Assembly: GCA_017448965.1 (NCBI GenBank)
Contig: JAFSKK010000054.1
Location: forward strand, 1 to 38,178
Direction: 5' to 3'
DNA from: Bacteroidaceae bacterium
GTDB taxonomy: Bacteria; Bacteroidota; Bacteroidia; Bacteroidales; Bacteroidaceae
DNA length: 38,178 nucleotides
The notes under the pieces were generated by a model. That model was not told where the DNA came from. It worked only from the letters and a program-made list of their open reading frames with translations, and did not search any database. The translations under genes were made by a program, and so were the position numbers. How positions within the stretch are numbered: the stretch's first letter is position 1; the number at the start of each line of letters is the position of its first letter. Below, in pieces: positions 6,187 through 34,803 of the stretch.

Positions 6187-8691
6187 ATGAAAAAATTTTA
6201 CGCAATGTTGGCCATGGCGGTGGTTCCATTGATGGCTTCTGCGCAGTTTGGAGTGGTTGCTCCGCTGCATGTCAACGGAAACCAGTTGAACGACCAGAAC
6301 GGCAACAAGGTGGTGCTCCATGGTGTGATGGACACCCCCAGTCCTTATTTCAATCACAATCGTTGGGGATACACGTGTACGGATAATAATGTAAGCGCGT
6401 GCATCAACTATTATGACAAGGTGTTTGGCGCTTTGCAGAATCCTGCCAAGGGCACGTACTGCAACATTTTCCGCCTGCACTTGGAGCCGGGTTGGACGAA
6501 TGACCCTTCGAAGCAGTCGACGGGCAGCGAGACGGGAGAGGCAAACATTTCTCGTTTCAGCGCAGCGCGTCTGCAGAAATATCTTGATATGCTCTACTGG
6601 CCTATCGCTCAGAAAGCCGTTAATCATGGCATGTATGTGGTGATGCGCCCTCCAGGCGTGTGTCCGAAGGAGTTGCAGGTGGGTGACTACTACCAAGAGT
6701 ATCTGAAGACGGTGTGGAACATTGTGTCGAGCAACAGCACCATCAAGCAGAATGCTGGCATCGTGTCGCTGGAGTTGGCCAACGAGCCTGTGCACATCAA
6801 GAACCAATGGGGTTACGACTCTGAGACGGCTATGCGCGACTATTTCCAGCCCATCATCGACATCATCCGACGCAACGGTTTCACGGGCATCATCTGGGTG
6901 CCTGGAACGGGTTACCAGAGCCAGTATCAGAACTATGCCAAGTATCCTGTCAACGACTCGAATTATGGTTATGCCGTGCATGTTTATCCTGAGTGGTATG
7001 GCGCGAGCGACAAGAGTTATAATCACCAGAATTTCATCACCAATTTCAAGAATCAGGTGCCTGTGGTGACCAGCAAGCCTATCCTCGTGAGCGAGATTGA
7101 CTGGAGCCCTGAGAAGCCTGGAACTGGCAAGTATAATGAGTTCGGTCAATGGGTGGCCAGCAACTATGGAACGTGGGGTACTGCATCGACCAGCAAGTGG
7201 GGTAATGCCTGGAAGGCTGTGATGGATTACTATGGCAACATCTCGATGACGCTGACCAGCATCGATGACTACCTCGATGTGGACGCTTTCTTGAACAACG
7301 GCACCATCAAGGCTGCCTTCGACGAGAACGTGGAGTGCTGCGCAAAGGCTTGCTTCTACTGGTATTATGAATACTCTCAGAAAGATTATGCCCGTAACAC
7401 GACCAATCAGAACAATAACAATAACAATAACCAGAACAATAACACAACTACCACTACCACTTCGGGCGACAAACTGATTCCCTCTTGGGGCGATGGCAGC
7501 AACTTTATCCCCGAAGGATGGACGACGGTGGATAATGGCTCGGAGATGCAGGCTGGAAGCGCCAGCCGTGGACCTCGTGTGATGCGCTTTGCTGATGGTG
7601 GTGAGATGACTTCGGCTTTCTATGCCCGTGAAATCAGCCCTGATCGCGCTGGCTACATCGAATATGGCGGCAAGAGTGGTCACAACCTCTCGTTGGTCTA
7701 TGGCGAGTATCTGCTTCAATGCAACATCGCGGCTTGGAAGGGTAGCCCCTACGTGAAGTGCGAGGTGTTTGACCCAGAAGGTGGCGTGCTTGCTTCTCGC
7801 ATCGTGAAGGCCAGCTGTAATGTGAATGGCAACAATTCTTCTAAAATTCAAGGCTCTGCCGTGTTGGCCATGAGTTTCTACTCCATGATTAAGGGTAACT
7901 ACCGTGTGCGCTTCACACCTGTGGCTGACGAGAACGGTAATGGCGGCAATTGGGTGGAAGCCCTCATCGGCAACGTCTCCCTCCAGTATCGTGGCAATCC
8001 TTTGGCCTTCAAGAAAGCGAACGAGGTTCCTGCTGGCTGGAAGCTGGTTGATGCCGACCAGGTGAAGCCTACAGGCGATGCAGGCAGCGGTCCCCGCGTG
8101 TTTGTCTTCAATGGCGGTGGTGAGATTCCAACAGGTCTCTACATCCGTCAGAGCGATGCCTCAAAAGCTGGCTATGCCGAGTTTGGCAGTACTGACGGCT
8201 ATGGCATGACCTTGAAGGCTGGTCAGTACAGCCTGAGCTACAACGCTGTGGCATGGGCAGGCACACCCTACGTGAAGTGTGAGGTGTTTGACCAGTCGAA
8301 CAATTGTCTCGGAAGTCAAATTATCCGTTGCAGCAAGAGTGTTGACAAGAATCTCAATGCATCGACTTATGGAAGTGCCTATGGTGTGGTGAACTTCTAT
8401 GCGCCCCGCACGGGCAACTATCGTTTCCGTTGGACACCTTGTGCTGACCAATGGGGTGGCAGCGGCACATGGGTTGAAGTGGTGTTTGGCCACATCAAGA
8501 TTTCGAAGGGGTCGGCCAATGCCAATGCCCGCGAACGGATGATAGACCTTGATGAGCAGACAACTGCCATCGAAGAGGTTTCGGCAGCCGCCAAGGAAGA
8601 TGACAGTTGGTACAACCTCAATGGTCAGAAGGTGAACGCTCCAACCAGAGGTTTGTATATCCACAAAGGCAAGAAAGTATATGTGAAGTAG
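6187..8691 (+). CDS. Secreted GH5 endo-glucanase with tandem repeat modules and T9SS-like tail
   Basis: An 834-residue precursor. Start ATG 6187 gives a clean signal peptide (MKKFYAMLAMAVVPLMASAQ); the frame is open further upstream but without a signal. The GH5 domain covers about 25-400: LANEPVH places the acid/base Glu at 200, HVYPEW gives His265/Tyr267, and LVSEIDWS places the nucleophile Glu at 303. An Asn/Thr-rich linker (about 404-430) follows. Two homologous modules of about 150 residues come next, both with GPRV, (Y)VKCEVFD, GNYR and GxWVE motifs; they look like β-sandwich carbohydrate-binding modules, but I cannot name the family. The end (YNLNGQKVNAPTRGLYIHKG then basic residues) is the short Prevotella form of a T9SS sorting tail, so surface or extracellular export is likely. 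The expected substrate is a β-glucan such as cellulose; exact specificity is open. Confidence 0.88.
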   Translation: MKKFYAMLAMAVVPLMASAQFGVVAPLHVNGNQLNDQNGNKVVLHGVMDTPSPYFNHNRWGYTCTDNNVSACINYYDKVFGALQNPAKGTYCNIFRLHLEPGWTNDPSKQSTGSETGEANISRFSAARLQKYLDMLYWPIAQKAVNHGMYVVMRPPGVCPKELQVGDYYQEYLKTVWNIVSSNSTIKQNAGIVSLELANEPVHIKNQWGYDSETAMRDYFQPIIDIIRRNGFTGIIWVPGTGYQSQYQNYAKYPVNDSNYGYAVHVYPEWYGASDKSYNHQNFITNFKNQVPVVTSKPILVSEIDWSPEKPGTGKYNEFGQWVASNYGTWGTASTSKWGNAWKAVMDYYGNISMTLTSIDDYLDVDAFLNNGTIKAAFDENVECCAKACFYWYYEYSQKDYARNTTNQNNNNNNNQNNNTTTTTTSGDKLIPSWGDGSNFIPEGWTTVDNGSEMQAGSASRGPRVMRFADGGEMTSAFYAREISPDRAGYIEYGGKSGHNLSLVYGEYLLQCNIAAWKGSPYVKCEVFDPEGGVLASRIVKASCNVNGNNSSKIQGSAVLAMSFYSMIKGNYRVRFTPVADENGNGGNWVEALIGNVSLQYRGNPLAFKKANEVPAGWKLVDADQVKPTGDAGSGPRVFVFNGGGEIPTGLYIRQSDASKAGYAEFGSTDGYGMTLKAGQYSLSYNAVAWAGTPYVKCEVFDQSNNCLGSQIIRCSKSVDKNLNASTYGSAYGVVNFYAPRTGNYRFRWTPCADQWGGSGTWVEVVFGHIKISKGSANANARERMIDLDEQTTAIEEVSAAAKEDDSWYNLNGQKVNAPTRGLYIHKGKKVYVK

Positions 8692-18119: not shown

Positions 18120-18129
18120 GAAATATTGA

Positions 18130-18223
18130 AGAATTGAAAAATTGAAGGATTGAAGTTTTTGGCTGACGCGATGTGAAAACACGCCGAATGGCCAACTTCA
18201 ATCCTTCAATTTTTCAATTCTTT
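18130..18223. terminator. Long hairpin between convergent genes
   Basis: A perfect inverted repeat of about 29 bp: arms 18130-18158 and 18195-18223, both built of ATTGAA-type units (GAATTGAAAAATTGAAGG), with A/T-rich ends. It lies between manC (+) and the TlpA-like gene (-) and can act as a terminator for both. ATTGAA-rich hairpins of this type appear to be a repeat family. Confidence 0.7.
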
Positions 18224-18227
18224 AATT

Positions 18228-19382
18228 TTATAACAGTTTCTGGATGTTTTCTTCCAATGTGCCTTCCATGAAGTCGCTGCGGACAACAATCTCGTTGGCT
18301 CTGTTCACGAGGAAGAATGTGGGCAGGTTGGTCACGTTGTAGATTTTTGTGGCCGATCCGTCTGTCTCATGCACACACACCCAGGGGAGATTTTCGCATG
18401 AGAACTTCCAGAAGTGAATGTCTTCGTCCAGCGAGATCTGGAAAATCTCGAAGCCCTGTGCATGATATTTCTCATAGAGGGTGCGCAGTTGTCGCATACG
18501 TTCTTTTGATTCTTCTGCGCTATAGGCGGTGAAGTCGATGAGCGCCACTTTCCCCTTCAGTTCTGTAACACTATGCAGCTGGCTGTTGATATCGGGCAGC
18601 GTGATGTCGATGATGCCCGTTTCCGACACTTTCTCCTCGTCCACTTCCATCACCCGCTGTTGTGGTGGAGCCGTGTTGTCCATTCCCTTGATGGCCATGT
18701 TGCACAGTTGCTTTGTGCGTGGCGCATCAGGGTAATTGCCGTCCCATGCTGTCGCTACAGTTGCGTAGCACTTCACGTCGTTGCGGTCGGTCAGCGGATT
18801 GAATAGTTGGAACGTGCCCTGCAGGTCGGTCAGACTTTGGCACACGGCATAGTAGGCCGCTGCTGATTTCGGCTCTGCGTAGATGTACTCCTGTTTCATC
18901 CGTTCCTTGTAGGCGTTGAGGATGCTTTTGATGCTGTCCACTTGGTCGCCCGGATACATGTCCTCGTTCCGCTCAATCTCCACCATCTGAGCCTGCACCT
19001 GTTGCTGCATCAGGCTTATCTCTTTGATTTTCTGACTGCTTTCGTTCCCTGCGATGGTGTATGCCTTCTCCATCGTTGGCAGTTTGGCCTTGATGGTGAT
19101 GGTCTCTGTGCTGTCCACCGCAAAGTTCACCAAGTGTTCCCCCACTTGCAACGCATAAAACTCAGGCGCCCCATTGGGAGCTGTCGCCTTGAACGAGAAA
19201 GTCCCGTCCTCCTTCAGTTTCACAGAGTCCAATTTTTGTACTCCATCCAGCGAACTCTGGATGAAGTACAGCATAGAGTCTTTCGCCCCTTCAATCGTTC
19301 CCTCCACACAGAACTTGGGCTCCTTGTCGCAGGCGGTCAGCATCATCAATCCAGCCGCTATCATCGTCAGTGTCTTTTTCAT
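18228..19382 (-). CDS. DUF4369/TlpA-like lipoprotein lacking the CxxC active site
   Basis: 384 residues from ATG 19382 (MKKTLTMIAAGLMMLTAC, lipobox LTAC, Cys18). An upstream in-frame start at 19502 is rejected because the promoter lies between. Residues about 20-120 form a DUF4369 domain (VEGTIEGAKDSMLYF…), then a helical linker. Residues about 255-384 form a TlpA/thioredoxin fold (IDITLPDINSQLHSVTELKG…VALIDFTAYSAEESKERM…NLPTFFLVN). At the position of WCxPC the sequence is YSAEES, so no redox Cys pair exists; the cis-Pro (LPTF) is kept. It is likely a periplasmic binding or scaffold protein and not a thiol oxidoreductase. Confidence 0.85.
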   Translation of the reverse strand: MKKTLTMIAAGLMMLTACDKEPKFCVEGTIEGAKDSMLYFIQSSLDGVQKLDSVKLKEDGTFSFKATAPNGAPEFYALQVGEHLVNFAVDSTETITIKAKLPTMEKAYTIAGNESSQKIKEISLMQQQVQAQMVEIERNEDMYPGDQVDSIKSILNAYKERMKQEYIYAEPKSAAAYYAVCQSLTDLQGTFQLFNPLTDRNDVKCYATVATAWDGNYPDAPRTKQLCNMAIKGMDNTAPPQQRVMEVDEEKVSETGIIDITLPDINSQLHSVTELKGKVALIDFTAYSAEESKERMRQLRTLYEKYHAQGFEIFQISLDEDIHFWKFSCENLPWVCVHETDGSATKIYNVTNLPTFFLVNRANEIVVRSDFMEGTLEENIQKLL

Positions 19383-30855: not shown

Positions 30856-32142
30856 TCAGAAAGAACTGATTCCACGAATGATTCTTTGGATGCCTTCTTT
30901 TAGAAGGCTGCGTTGTGTGGCGAGATTGATGCGGATGTAGCCTTCTCCTGCCGTTTGTCCGTACATGGTGCCTGGGTTGACGCGCACTTTGTGGTGGTGT
31001 AACAGATGGTGGGCCACTTCCTCTGAAGTTTTGCCTGTGGCAGCAATGTTCACCCACATCAGGTAGGTGCCCTCCAGCTCTGTGACAGGACATTCAGGAT
31101 GTGACTCTTCGAGCATTTGCTTGGCCACCTGATAGTTGCCGTAGATGTATTGGTTCAGTTCGTCGAGCCAGGCTTCTCCCTCGTCGGAGTAGGCCGCTTG
31201 CAGGGCAATGACTCCAAAAGGGTTGACGTCGCACACTTCGTTGATGTTGATGGCCTTGTCCACTTTCTCCCTCACCTCCTTGTCCTTCACGATGATGTTG
31301 GCTATCTGCAAGCCTGCGATATTGAAAGCTTTCGAGGGTGAAATGCACACGGCGCTGTTCATGGTGAATGGTGCGGAGATGGAGGCGAAGGGGGTGTAAG
31401 TGTGCCCAGGCATGACGAACTCGCAGTGAATCTCGTCGCTGATGACGAAGACTTGGTGCTGGAGGCAAATCTCGCCCATGCGTGTCAGTTCTTCCCGTGT
31501 CCATACGCGACCTGCTGGGTTGTGTGGATTGCAGAGCAGGAACACCTTCACGGCAGGGTCGGCACATTGCTGCTCGAAGTCCTCCCAATCCACAGTATAA
31601 GACCCTCCCCAAGACCCTCTCCCCAACCCTCCCCCATAATGGGGAGGGAGACCATGCGGAGTCTTGTCATTGGAGAACAAGCCGGAGGGTACCCCCTCCC
31701 CATTATGGGGGAGGGTTGGGGAGAGGGTCTTCAGCGGATTCTCTGCCAAGATGCAGCCGTTGTTTCTGATGCTGGAGAAAAAGCAGTTGTACACAGGTGT
31801 CTGCACCAGCACCTTGTCGCCGGGTTGAGTCAGGGCTTTAATGATGGCGGAGATGGCAGGCACCACACCACTTGTGTAGATGAACGAGCTTCTGTCGATG
31901 CTCCAATGGTGCCGACGCTCGAACCAGCGGATGGTAGCCTCATAATAACTCTCAGGCACGAAAGTGTAACCAAAACAGCCGTGCTGCATGCGCTCTCTCA
32001 GGGCTTTCAGAACGCAAGGAGCCGTCTCGAAATCCATGTCGGCCACCCATAGCGGGACAATCTCAGGGCTTTCCATCTCGTCCCATTTCACGCAGTTGGT
32101 GCCGCTTCTGTCGACGATTTTATCAAAGTCGTGAGTTTTCAT
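30856..32142 (-). CDS. MalY/PatB-type PLP-dependent C-S lyase (cystathionine β-lyase), with in-frame insertion element
   Basis: 428 residues; typical members have about 390. Fold type I PLP enzyme that breaks C-S bonds of cystathionine or related thioethers. The N-terminal KTHDFDKIVDRSGTNCVKWD, the ADMDF motif, LLCNPHNPAGRVWT, ISDEIHCE and the PLP lysine in SPSKAFNIAGLQ are all present. The surplus is a 39-40-residue block after LAENPLK, reading TLSPTLPHNGEG…GRGSWGGS. It is coded by the palindromic element at 31611-31731 and followed directly by the normal sequence YTVDWEDFEQQ. The insert falls in a surface segment between two conserved blocks, so the enzyme may remain active. A -7 element TATCTTTG is at 32176-32169. 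Confidence 0.9.
   Translation of the reverse strand: MKTHDFDKIVDRSGTNCVKWDEMESPEIVPLWVADMDFETAPCVLKALRERMQHGCFGYTFVPESYYEATIRWFERRHHWSIDRSSFIYTSGVVPAISAIIKALTQPGDKVLVQTPVYNCFFSSIRNNGCILAENPLKTLSPTLPHNGEGVPSGLFSNDKTPHGLPPHYGGGLGRGSWGGSYTVDWEDFEQQCADPAVKVFLLCNPHNPAGRVWTREELTRMGEICLQHQVFVISDEIHCEFVMPGHTYTPFASISAPFTMNSAVCISPSKAFNIAGLQIANIIVKDKEVREKVDKAININEVCDVNPFGVIALQAAYSDEGEAWLDELNQYIYGNYQVAKQMLEESHPECPVTELEGTYLMWVNIAATGKTSEEVAHHLLHHHKVRVNPGTMYGQTAGEGYIRINLATQRSLLKEGIQRIIRGISSF
31611..31731. mobile_element. MITE-like palindromic element in malY-like gene
   Basis: Terminal inverted repeats of 38 bp (31611-31648 and 31694-31731) match perfectly, begin AAGACCCTCTCCCCAACCCT and enclose 45 bp. Without the terminal AA/TT the element is 117 bp = 39 codons. 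A partial repeat, AAGACCCTCCCC, stands directly left at 31599-31610. The same element, with a diverged left end, lies reversed in the MATE gene at 33967-34087. It contains no ORF of its own and would need a transposase in trans. Confidence 0.82.
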
Positions 32143-32168
32143 TTTCAGTTCTTCTATCGTTTCGTTGG

Positions 32169-32176
32169 CAAAGATA
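32169..32176 (-). promoter_or_regulatory. -7 element of the malY-like gene
   Basis: TATCTTTG on the minus strand. The nearest TTTG (32203-32200) is 23 bp upstream, slightly too far, so the -33 box is doubtful. The palindrome array at 32264-32348 lies just upstream of it. Confidence 0.5.
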
Positions 32177-32263
32177 CGAAAAAATTTTCATTGAATCCTC
32201 AAAGTCAGCCACTTAAATTGTACAATCGCGGCTCTTCGTGTAACACGAATGAGGATGTTGAAA

Positions 32264-32348
32264 TGTTACACTTGTAACACACCCAGTGTTACAAGTGTAA
32301 CAGTGGATGTGTTACAAGTGTAACACTGGGTGTGTTACAAACGTTACA
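32264..32348. repeat. Array 3: four 16-bp palindromes (TGTTACAAGTGTAACA), 23-bp period
   Basis: TGTTACACTTGTAACA 32264-32279, TGTTACAAGTGTAACA 32287-32302 and 32310-32325, TGTTACAAACGTTACA 32333-32348. The starts are exactly 23 bp apart. The spacers CACCCAG, GTGGATG and CTGGGTG make the block at 32278-32334 a larger inverted repeat with about 25-bp arms. A further small palindrome, TCGTGTAACACGA, is at 32236-32248. It is sited between the malY-like promoter (to its left) and the end of the DUF3737 gene. The spacing and symmetry resemble operator or iteron arrays. Confidence 0.82.
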
Positions 32349-32390
32349 TTTAGCATGTGTCGCATGTGATGCTGAAAGACCCGTCATCGC

Positions 32391-33242
32391 TCACTTTCCG
32401 TTCACAATCACCTGGGCATTGGCAGGCTGCTTCTGGTTCTCATCCCAAATGAGTTCGCCCACTTTGCCTTCGACGATGACTGTGCCGCTGGTGGGGTTCT
32501 TGATGCTGTGTACATTGCCTCGGATGGTGCCGTTGACGGTGGAATATTCCAGAATGAGGTTGGCATCCTCGCCAAAGGTGCAGTCTTCGAGCGTGAGGCC
32601 ATCGACATAACAGAACAGTTGCTCGCCTGTCAGGTGGCAACGCACAAGGCGTATGTTCTTGCCGTACCAAGCCAGATACTCCCCATTCACCTCCGAATCA
32701 TAGATGGTGACGTTTTCCGATTCCCAGAAAGAGTCTTTGGAGTTGATGACAGCGTGGTGTATCTCCACATTCTTAGCATACTGAAAGGCGTAGTTGCCCT
32801 CTTGGTGGTAGTTCTCGATGAGGATGTTCTCTGAGTGCATGAAGGCATAGTCGCAATTGTCAATACGCACGTTCTTGAGGTGGATGTTCTTGCAATCCCA
32901 CAGGTATTGTTCTCCATTGGGAAAGTTGGTGTTCTCCACATAGATGCCATCCATCCGACGGAAGAGTTTGGGAGCATCCACCTTACAGTTGGTCATGCGG
33001 CAGTTGCGTGAATACCAAAGGCTGCTACGTGCACTCTCGGCAAAGTAGCAGTTGTTCACACGGAAACCGTCGGTCTCCCAAAATACGTACTTGCCCTCGA
33101 AAGTGCAGCCTTCAGCCTCGATGTTGCTGCTTTCCTTGATGGACGACTCGCCAATGTGGATGGTCACACCTTCCAGACGTAGATTGTGTGAGGCGTACAG
33201 GGGACGCTCTCCTCCAAACTCCTGATTCTTAATAATTTTCAT
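32391..33242 (-). CDS. DUF3737 family protein (right-handed β-helix)
   Basis: 283 residues: MKIIKNQEFGGERPLYASHNLRLEGVTI… with short repeats of the kind (C)xNxxxxNxxVDxxxxxxxSENxxI (e.g. CKNIHLKNVRIDNCDYAFMH, AKNVEIHHAVINSKDSFWES), the spacing typical of β-helix rungs. The family is common in Bacteroidetes and Firmicutes and is of unknown function; a carbohydrate link is suggested by its fold. It overlaps the MATE gene by 14 bp, so it is translated in tandem with it. Confidence 0.85.
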   Translation of the reverse strand: MKIIKNQEFGGERPLYASHNLRLEGVTIHIGESSIKESSNIEAEGCTFEGKYVFWETDGFRVNNCYFAESARSSLWYSRNCRMTNCKVDAPKLFRRMDGIYVENTNFPNGEQYLWDCKNIHLKNVRIDNCDYAFMHSENILIENYHQEGNYAFQYAKNVEIHHAVINSKDSFWESENVTIYDSEVNGEYLAWYGKNIRLVRCHLTGEQLFCYVDGLTLEDCTFGEDANLILEYSTVNGTIRGNVHSIKNPTSGTVIVEGKVGELIWDENQKQPANAQVIVNGK

Positions 33243-34803
33243 AAATGGTTTCGGTCTTAATGAGCGATTCTTTTTCTGTTTGTGTTGTTTGGTTCTTAGC
33301 CTCTTCCATGCTGATGTTGCTCCATCCTCTTCGGCTCAGTCGGAACAGGAAAGCAGCTCCTCGCCAACAGAGCTCGATGCACATGGCAATCCACACTCCG
33401 CGCAAGCCCATGGTGGGAGCCAGCATCAAGGCCAAAGTGAGGCGCACGATCCAGATGCTGGCCAGATTCATGAGGCTTGGCACCAACGTCTTGCCTGAGC
33501 CCACAAACACGCCATACGCCACGATGCTGGCGGCAAACATGGGTTCTGCCCATGCCTCGATGCGCAGCACTTCAGAGCCGAGTGCCACGACGGAAGCATC
33601 GGTGCTGACCATCTGCATCAGTTCGGGTGCAAACACACCCATCAGGATGCCCATCACCGCCATTACGGCCATGCCTAAGGTAACCGAAATCCACGCAAAA
33701 CTCCGCATCAAGTCCTTGCGACGAGCTCCGAGGCTCTGCCCCACCAGCGTGGTGGATGCCTCAGCGATGCCATATCCAGGCATGTAGCAGAGGCTTTCAA
33801 TGTTGATGCCGAACGTGTTGGCTGCGATGGCAACAGAACCTAAAGGGGCGATGATGCCTGTGATGGCAATTTGTGCACCGCACATCACACCTCGTTCCAA
33901 ACTGATGGGGGAACCGATGACAAAGGCTTTCTTGAGGGTCATGCGGCTGGGAATGTAATGATAAAAGACCCTCTCTGTCCTTCGGACATCTCCCCTATAA
34001 TGGGGAGAGCCATCCGGCTTGTTTGCTGGCGACAAAGACCCCGCATGGTCTCCCTCCCCATTACGGGGGAGGGTTGGGGAGAGGGTCTGTTGGTCTAAGG
34101 CAAAACGCAGTTGGGGGTCGCGCACCGACATGAAGTAGAGCATCAGCCCCATCGTGATGGCGTATGCCAAGAAGGTGCCGTATGCAGCTCCTGCTGTACC
34201 CATGTGGAGAACGAAGATGAAGAGATAGTTGAAAATCACGTCCAACACACACATAAGGGCATTCAGCAGACTTGGCACTTTAATGTTGCCGCTGCATCTC
34301 AAACTGCCCGCTGCCAGCATGTTGATTTCCAGCACGGGAAGTGCCATAGCCACGATAGTGAAGTATTCGGAGGCACCTGCATGAATCGATTCGTCTGCCC
34401 CAAGCCAAACGGGTAAGTATGGGGCGATGAGTATGCCGATGAGGGTCAACAGAAGACTGAATGTAAGCCCTGCAAAAAGCCCTTGCCGGATGATGTTTCT
34501 GGCGCCACGCAGGTCTTCGGCACCCACATAGTGCGCCACCTGCACGGAAAAGCCTGCCGCAAAAGCTGAGCATAAGCCGCCAAAAAGCCAGATGGTAGTG
34601 GACACCAATCCGACTGTGGCGGACTCTTTCGTGCCGAGATGCCCCAACATGGCGGCATCGATAATCTGCATGGCTACCGACGAAATCTGCGCCACCATGG
34701 CTGGAAGGCTCAAAAGAACAGTCAGCCGCAGCTTTTCTTGCCACGACATGTTTCTCGCACCTTTCCTCACCAGCGCCAGCAGTTCGTCTTTCGTCAGACT
34801 CAT
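33229..34803 (-). CDS. MATE-family exporter, with in-frame insertion element
   Basis: 524 residues with about 12 hydrophobic helices; usual MATE length is 440-460. Cation-coupled multidrug/toxin exporter of the inner membrane. N-terminal half: LTVLLSLPAMVAQISSVAMQ, IDAAMLGHLG…; second half: SPISLERGVMCGAQIAITGI…. Between helices 6 and 7, after LDQQ, the sequence TLSPTLPRNGEGDHAGSLSP…RTERVF appears. It is coded by the palindromic element at 33967-34087, and LDQQ and YHYIPSRMTLKKAFVIG flank it. This loop is cytoplasmic and tolerant of insertions, so function may be kept. Upstream gene end is 52 bp away, so it is probably part of the dipeptidyl-peptidase operon. Confidence 0.9.
   Translation of the reverse strand: MSLTKDELLALVRKGARNMSWQEKLRLTVLLSLPAMVAQISSVAMQIIDAAMLGHLGTKESATVGLVSTTIWLFGGLCSAFAAGFSVQVAHYVGAEDLRGARNIIRQGLFAGLTFSLLLTLIGILIAPYLPVWLGADESIHAGASEYFTIVAMALPVLEINMLAAGSLRCSGNIKVPSLLNALMCVLDVIFNYLFIFVLHMGTAGAAYGTFLAYAITMGLMLYFMSVRDPQLRFALDQQTLSPTLPRNGEGDHAGSLSPANKPDGSPHYRGDVRRTERVFYHYIPSRMTLKKAFVIGSPISLERGVMCGAQIAITGIIAPLGSVAIAANTFGINIESLCYMPGYGIAEASTTLVGQSLGARRKDLMRSFAWISVTLGMAVMAVMGILMGVFAPELMQMVSTDASVVALGSEVLRIEAWAEPMFAASIVAYGVFVGSGKTLVPSLMNLASIWIVRLTLALMLAPTMGLRGVWIAMCIELCWRGAAFLFRLSRRGWSNISMEEAKNQTTQTEKESLIKTETIYENY
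33967..34087. mobile_element. Second MITE-like palindromic element, in the MATE gene
   Basis: The right end (34052-34087, 36 bp) matches the end of the element at 31694-31729 with one change (TTACG for TTATG). The core contains CCGGCTTGTTTGCTGGCGAC and CCCCGCATGGTCT, the reverse complement of the malY-element core with changes. The left end (33967-34009) has diverged (GTCCTTCGGACA in place of the normal run). The element therefore sits in the opposite orientation relative to its host gene compared with the other copy, yet both leave the reading frame open. Confidence 0.78.

Follow-up and report, generated by a model that had tools for sequence, protein, structure and literature searches.

In-frame palindromic elements of a Bacteroidaceae genome share their hairpin ends with a DUF559 nuclease gene, a candidate for their mobilisation

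Rickettsia palindromic elements (RPEs) and the coding palindromes of Wolbachia are repeats of 105–146 bp that lie in frame within conserved protein genes and also between genes (PMC2229807, PMC10969869; both in the parts consulted). Such in-frame elements were reported from Rickettsia in 2000 (Ogata et al., as cited in the consulted part of PMC2229807), and the consulted parts of the RPE reviews name no enzyme that moves them. For a gene with the domain of unknown function DUF559, the consulted part of PMC9403480 gives an assignment to the EDxHD type. Here we describe a family of palindromic elements starting from the window, i.e. a stretch of 38,178 nt from a Bacteroidaceae genome in which two protein genes carry one element each (A and B). 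With a probability of roughly two in three, we read A and B as nuclease-less, MITE-like copies of a hairpin-ended homing-nuclease element, which would be mobilised by that nuclease and tolerated in proteins because it is translated. The relevant features of the window are as follows.

18122..18229, no strand assigned: possibly related palindrome with AT-rich arms of 36 nt (94%), its core holding the motif at 18178–18191 (minus strand, 2 mismatches)
30856..32142, minus strand: host 1, gene for a PLP-dependent C-S lyase (malY/patB-like, 428 aa, Aminotran_1_2 match), insert at about aa 139–177
31599..31610, plus strand: partial copy of the end sequence (AAGACCCTCCCC), adjoining element A inside the reading frame, found by eye
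31611..31731, minus strand: element A, two type-A hairpin ends (31694–31731 and 31611–31648) and a 45-nt core, in frame in the malY/patB-like gene
31652..31665, plus strand: subterminal motif CCATGCGGAGTCTT in element A, 2 mismatches to the consensus CCATGCGGGRTGTT
33229..34803, minus strand: host 2, gene for a MATE-family transporter (524 aa, MatE match), insert at about aa 240–280
33966..34088, minus strand: element B, 123 nt, type-A end (34052–34088) plus inverted type-B end (33966–34008), in frame in the MATE gene
34010..34023, plus strand: similar motif CCATCCGGCTTGTT beside the type-B end of element B, 3 mismatches
34035..34048, minus strand: subterminal motif CCATGCGGGGTCTT in element B, beside the type-A end, 1 mismatch

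Element A proved to be built as the first-pass annotation had described it, with perfect 38-bp terminal repeats (31611–31648 and 31694–31731, 100% complementary at a spacing of 45 nt) and a re-measured 117 nt, or 39 codons, between its GACCC ends. Element B, previously placed at 33967–34087, is likewise an in-frame copy in the MATE gene, but its limits are 33966 and 34088, its palindrome is imperfect and its second end differs from those of A, representing a separate unit (GACCCTCTCTGTCC...GGACATCTCCCC). What had been taken for one palindromic element is a family whose ends come in two types, A and B. Positions 31612–31665 of element A pair to 96% with positions 34035–34088 of element B. The translations of both genes show the cores in opposite orientations relative to their hosts and the peptide TLSPTLP(H/R)NGEG at the start of both inserts, as had been claimed. 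Openness in several frames is in itself unremarkable: four of the six frames are open in each element, near the expectation from dinucleotide shuffles (P = 0.065 for A, 0.05 for B), and openness in many frames was rejected as an adaptation.

Both host genes, on the minus strand, maintain their open reading frame through the insert. Sequence alignment to a solved relative placed the insert of the malY-like protein between residues 146 and 148 of the 4dgt chain; an AlphaFold model of this protein with its insert, made from two sequences, was poor (pLDDT 44) and uninformative. The nearest relative found, Tb.RUG.104 (G041), is devoid of both elements at the matching sites, with identities of 89–90% on both sides of element A and of 89% and 81% beside element B, and instead of the inserts it has, as judged by eye, ~4 (malY) and 7–10 (MATE) different loop codons. 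A comparison of hosts with and without insert, which the first-pass annotation had called for, therefore did yield orthologues free of the element, albeit with a gap that is not perfectly clean, given the other codons in the G041 loop; the codons of the host differ at the insertion site. Relative to most orthologues, the net gain amounts to 114 nt in malY and 102 nt in MATE. More distant orthologues were also free of A and B, with the exception of G007, whose MATE gene bears a different insert-like stretch at the position of element B. Presence and absence at given sites vary among relatives in both directions, with G041 having copies at sites that are empty in the window's genome. A second malY-like paralogue of this genome carries a single unit in the matching loop, where G005 has an A/B pair (net +51 and +132 nt, respectively, over the empty G006 gene). 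No frameshifted or truncated host was encountered among the sites read, and there is no sign that the inserts mark dead genes, as had been considered. No target-site duplication was seen at the two window sites, nor a convincing one across 67 paired copies, whose left and right flanks were no more alike than shuffled flanks at lengths 1–8 and showed a small excess at lengths 9–15 (e.g., 0.29 vs 0.25 at 15). Between the malY-like gene and its neighbour lies a different, intergenic palindromic repeat of TGTTACACTTGTAACA type (32261–32351), with many similar copies in G041.

Searching the genome and its relatives for the ends, another suggestion of the initial annotation, uncovered a repeated family. 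Element A produced 76 overlapping matches in its own genome and the end pattern 37, as compared to one for the reversed pattern, which indicates a repeat beyond chance. When pattern matches were merged site by site by reading, with contigs C31 and C44 counted once, ~32 family sites resulted, of which 23 lie in frame within genes, 3 at gene ends and 6 in the gaps between genes. (The two contigs, L072 and L071, are identical at 6613/6613 compared bases, and one may be an assembly duplicate.) The 23 internal sites are spread over 22 unrelated genes, including those for CTP synthase, MutS2 (two sites), MutY, TopB (two single units), RsmF, Mfd, CbiB, a CobJ/precorrin-8X methylmutase fusion, ROK glucokinase, trans-4-hydroxy-L-proline dehydratase, PatB and GH88; in 14 of the 22, one family match spans the insert or falls in two stretches. 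In host genes, the frame runs on through the copies. Paired copies (n = 67) measure 89–202 nt, alongside single units of ~40–50 nt. Two neighbouring ComEA-like genes (L066:2117-2869 and L066:5040-5948) carry an element at the same site, as if co-duplicated.

When 84,980 genomes were scanned with the strict type-A pattern, it hit 86 stretches spread over 20 assemblies. Nineteen of these carry the label Bacteroidales, Bacteroidaceae or Prevotellaceae, several under names with rumen, sheep or horse. The remaining one is a small contig labelled uncultured actinobacterium RUG440 (L185), with the element inside an ORF, and is perhaps mis-binned. Among 41 genomes searched (own included), 17 had a family match, in 2 of 17 genera. 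The 86 stretches hold 115 unit clusters, of which a home-made codon-score gene finder, for which "inside an ORF" means in frame by definition, placed 55 inside predicted ORFs, 47 between ORFs, 6 across an ORF end and 7 at edges; the rest of their sequence is 86.6% predicted coding. A first classification of 92 copies, likewise based on this gene finder, had counted 32 that were in frame and had two coding flanks, 49 with one or both flanks non-coding, 5 on the same strand in another phase, 1 between opposite strands, 1 with an internal stop and 4 at edges. An exact type-A unit is also present in two IMG/VR contigs (L326, L327).

Copies between genes follow a strict rule in that they lie only between co-directional genes: with genes called by the same gene finder, this is true of all 41 element-bearing gaps (35 in the scan loci and 6 in the window's genome), as compared to 225 of 354 element-free gaps no shorter than 50 nt. 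Several of these 41 gaps are orthologous to one another; even at 25 independent sites, the probability would be ~1e-5. Because a gene cut in two would also appear co-directional, we tested 20 of the 41 gaps for split genes. In 16, both neighbours matched Pfam families and none of these looked like one split gene, leading us to reject this cause; in the other four, one neighbour was without a Pfam match. Neighbour pairs included gldK-type/gldL, gldM/gldN, etfB/etfA, uxuA/mannitol-dehydrogenase-type and recA/saccharopine-dehydrogenase-type genes.

The elements are also often better kept than their surroundings. Orthologous paired elements were more alike than their flanks in 18 of 23 pairs and less alike in 5, the 23 being those in which both copies were recognised as paired elements and several of which share a copy. 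In the strongest case (L169/L180), 122 of 123 element positions are identical at ~80% identity in the flanks. Since copies were found through likeness to the ends, part of this conservation reflects ascertainment; the L169/L180 spacer, which was not used in finding copies, is conserved as well. Such conservation could stem from gene conversion, from renewed insertion at an identical site or from selection acting on structure. It is not explained by plain decay of a selfish insert, and we count this against the preferred reading. In addition, both bases have changed together at one stem pair of the B unit (UA in 58 copies, CG in 12, none broken), possibly one inherited subfamily. Together with the co-directional rule, for which split genes are not the cause, these observations speak for hairpins that are kept by the host for mRNA stability, processing or translation pausing and whose spread is incidental. 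Set against this are the unrelated hosts, the variation of sites between relatives and the other possible sources of both the conservation and the double change, and we regard host-selected structure as improbable.

A candidate mover resides between leuA and leuC, where a longer copy holds a DUF559 ORF between the same end types as in A and B. Inverted ends are thereby common to short and longer copies, and the same end types exist with and without a nuclease gene in one genome. The DUF559 protein has a Vsr-like nuclease fold. Most DUF559 genes examined in this genus are flanked on both sides by hairpins of several sequence types, at leuA–leuC and, as identified by eye, at argG–argC, nadA–mnmA and other places, and at several loci the downstream protein begins within the right hairpin. 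Flanking repeats of at least 12 nt accompanied 19 of 28 DUF559 ORFs as compared to 5 of 113 control ORFs (4 of 32 DUF559 loci were dropped for flanks that were too short, and two controls were omitted as DUF559 ORFs themselves); the nine ORFs lacking such repeats count against the preferred reading. Among the 30 loci listed for the phylum, where 170 of 296 sampled genomes contain DUF559, 12 of the 17 stand-alone copies tested were bracketed, compared to 9 of 154 control ORFs.

Alternatively, the hairpins may be an independent, RPE-like palindromic family in which DUF559 genes merely land or ride along. Two genomes rich in hairpins, G005 (65% complete) and G015, had no detected DUF559 gene, and at several DUF559 loci the repeats are direct instead of inverted (L267, L270). 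Yet the DUF559 genes are each bracketed even where their hairpins differ, several of them with a common inner motif, and bracketing recurs beyond the phylum: of 38 plasmid records with a DUF559 match, ten loci were opened, and six, from Sphingomonas, Sinorhizobium, Deinococcus, Azospirillum lipoferum and two cyanobacteria, are flanked by repeats of 18 nt or more. Passive carriage of the nuclease gene therefore appears unlikely to us, though less so than the other alternatives. Further observations weigh against mobilisation by the nuclease, namely the other four plasmid loci, without a flanking repeat above 10 nt, and the fact that the leuA–leuC loci are the only DUF559 loci in this genus with ends close to those of A and B. 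Across 25 same-genus genomes, the presence of any DUF559 was weakly associated with that of elements (11/16 vs 2/9, p = 0.03; p = 0.06 without G006, whose match is an ordinary domain of a helicase). Among DUF559 relatives in IMG/VR, five stretches fit the peptide pattern and none was confirmed, while phage records returned three DUF559 matches, all under 60% identity.

What many of the differing hairpins have in common is CCATGCGGGRTGTT, which sits immediately inside them. Allowing up to 2 mismatches, it occurred upstream in 9 and downstream in 9 of 19 DUF559 loci (0 of 570 shuffles each), on both sides in 7 and on neither side in 8; it is missing on at least one side in 12, a gap that we count against the preferred reading. 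The 19 loci are not independent, several being the same argG–argC or leuA–leuC insertion in different genomes, and the motif-positive loci are largely one argG–argC insertion recurring across several genomes. In the window's genome the motif was found 22 times as compared to once for the control, part of these copies being in A/B elements, some in palindromes with different AT-rich arms and about two apparently by chance within genes. With the inner motif constant while the arms vary, CCATGCGGGRTGTT is a candidate recognition site, as judged from sequence. The core of the AT-rich palindrome at 18122–18229 contains CCATTCGGCGTGTT, close to the A/B family motif; another window palindrome with AT-rich arms (207–299) resembles L340, L341 and L345 by eye.

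DUF559 domains are also found inside larger proteins. In 12 of the 30 listed phylum loci, the domain lies within an ORF stretch of more than 600 aa, comprising LeuS (two), HsdR (four), MetH, an HsdM-type N6 methylase, a type ISP enzyme, another DNA methylase, an MmeI-like protein and the end of a GATase_5 protein; the search for relatives contributed L275, which is again a LeuS and brings these to three, and L276, a sugar epimerase/dehydratase. The nuclease domain of L282, a helicase, is an ordinary C-terminal one. Hairpins scoring at least 10 were present in 18 of 30 flanks (15 in-protein DUF559 ORFs) as compared to 20 of 339 control windows. One HsdR reading frame (L318:175-3315:+) has both a GIY-YIG and a DUF559 domain in frame. 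In fusions with restriction-modification enzymes the nuclease domain could serve the host, which again counts against the preferred reading. The insert might conceivably be excised from the RNA or skipped during translation to leave a mature protein without it, and the very stable RNA hairpin predicted for element A (−102.5 kcal/mol) would be in line with this. Removal, however, would require neither the frame nor the openness that are kept at the 23 internal sites, and Pfam listed no intein family for the 14 ORFs with DUF559 inside (cut-offs 0.01, 1e-6 and 1e-3), rendering this scenario very improbable.

For the reading that we prefer, in which A and B are short copies of a nuclease-coding element, the long form consists of a hairpin end, a DUF559 endonuclease gene (Vsr fold, EDxHD-type homing endonuclease family) and an inverted second hairpin end. 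The nuclease may act on the ends or on a target, and repair may then copy the element into the site; the target would not be duplicated and might lose a few bases. Selection would remove gene-breaking insertions, and those that keep the frame in loops, linkers and gene ends would persist, such that the surviving element is translated as a TLSPTLPHNGEG-type loop. Whether this extends to a class of mobile element in four bacterial phyla, undescribed as far as we searched, is in our estimation finely balanced: a Vsr-fold homing nuclease between hairpin ends would insert into coding genes and operon junctions, be translated unspliced within the host protein and shed nuclease-less hairpins (the window copies and possibly RPEs) that remodel protein loops. 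In titles and abstracts of the open-licence PMC literature, we found no link of DUF559 to palindromic elements. The present case offers in-frame palindromes a testable mover candidate in the form of a small homing-type nuclease whose gene lies between identical end types. If the nuclease does move the elements, this would link coding palindromes to homing endonucleases, provide a common domain of unknown function with a role and reveal where new loops in such enzymes as LeuS, MetH, CTP synthase and MutS2 can naturally come from, suggesting a route by which "readable" mobile DNA might spread through protein genes.

How does the family compare to known systems? Mobilisation by a RAYT (Y1) transposase, as for REP/BIME elements and REPtrons, would fit the hairpin units that are single or in inverted pairs, the occurrence within genes, which is also reported for REPs (PMC3733652, in the part consulted), and a repeat-bracketed gene as candidate mover. 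However, the nuclease here is of the Vsr fold rather than a Y1 transposase, copies in the window's genome are mostly within genes, and neither the B-unit consensus nor, on reading, the A unit has a GTAG or CGTC foot tag. Y1_Tnp (PF01797) had no match in the window's genome (assembly 86% complete) or in the copy-rich G013 and G015 and does not track copy number; RAYT mobilisation was rejected on this basis, and of all alternatives we consider it the least probable. From EDxHD/Vsr-fold homing endonucleases such as I-Bth0305I, the present genes differ in that hairpins bracket them and that they are read in frame, Pfam listing no intein domain. RPEs, to which the first-pass annotation had likened the elements, are matched in size (121 and 123 nt for A and B, at ~100–150 bp for RPEs) and in the in-frame insertion into unrelated conserved genes with insert-free orthologues. 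Unlike RPEs of Rickettsia and Wolbachia, the A/B family belongs to another phylum, has two distinct end types and, in its longer copies, a nuclease gene between the ends. The family works like RPEs, an analogy rather than a claim of membership. Finally, in comparison to MITEs, the longer A/B form encodes a nuclease instead of a known transposase and target-site duplications are not convincing, but, as with MITEs, the short copies share their inverted ends with a longer coding element, here the leuA–leuC copy with its DUF559 ORF.
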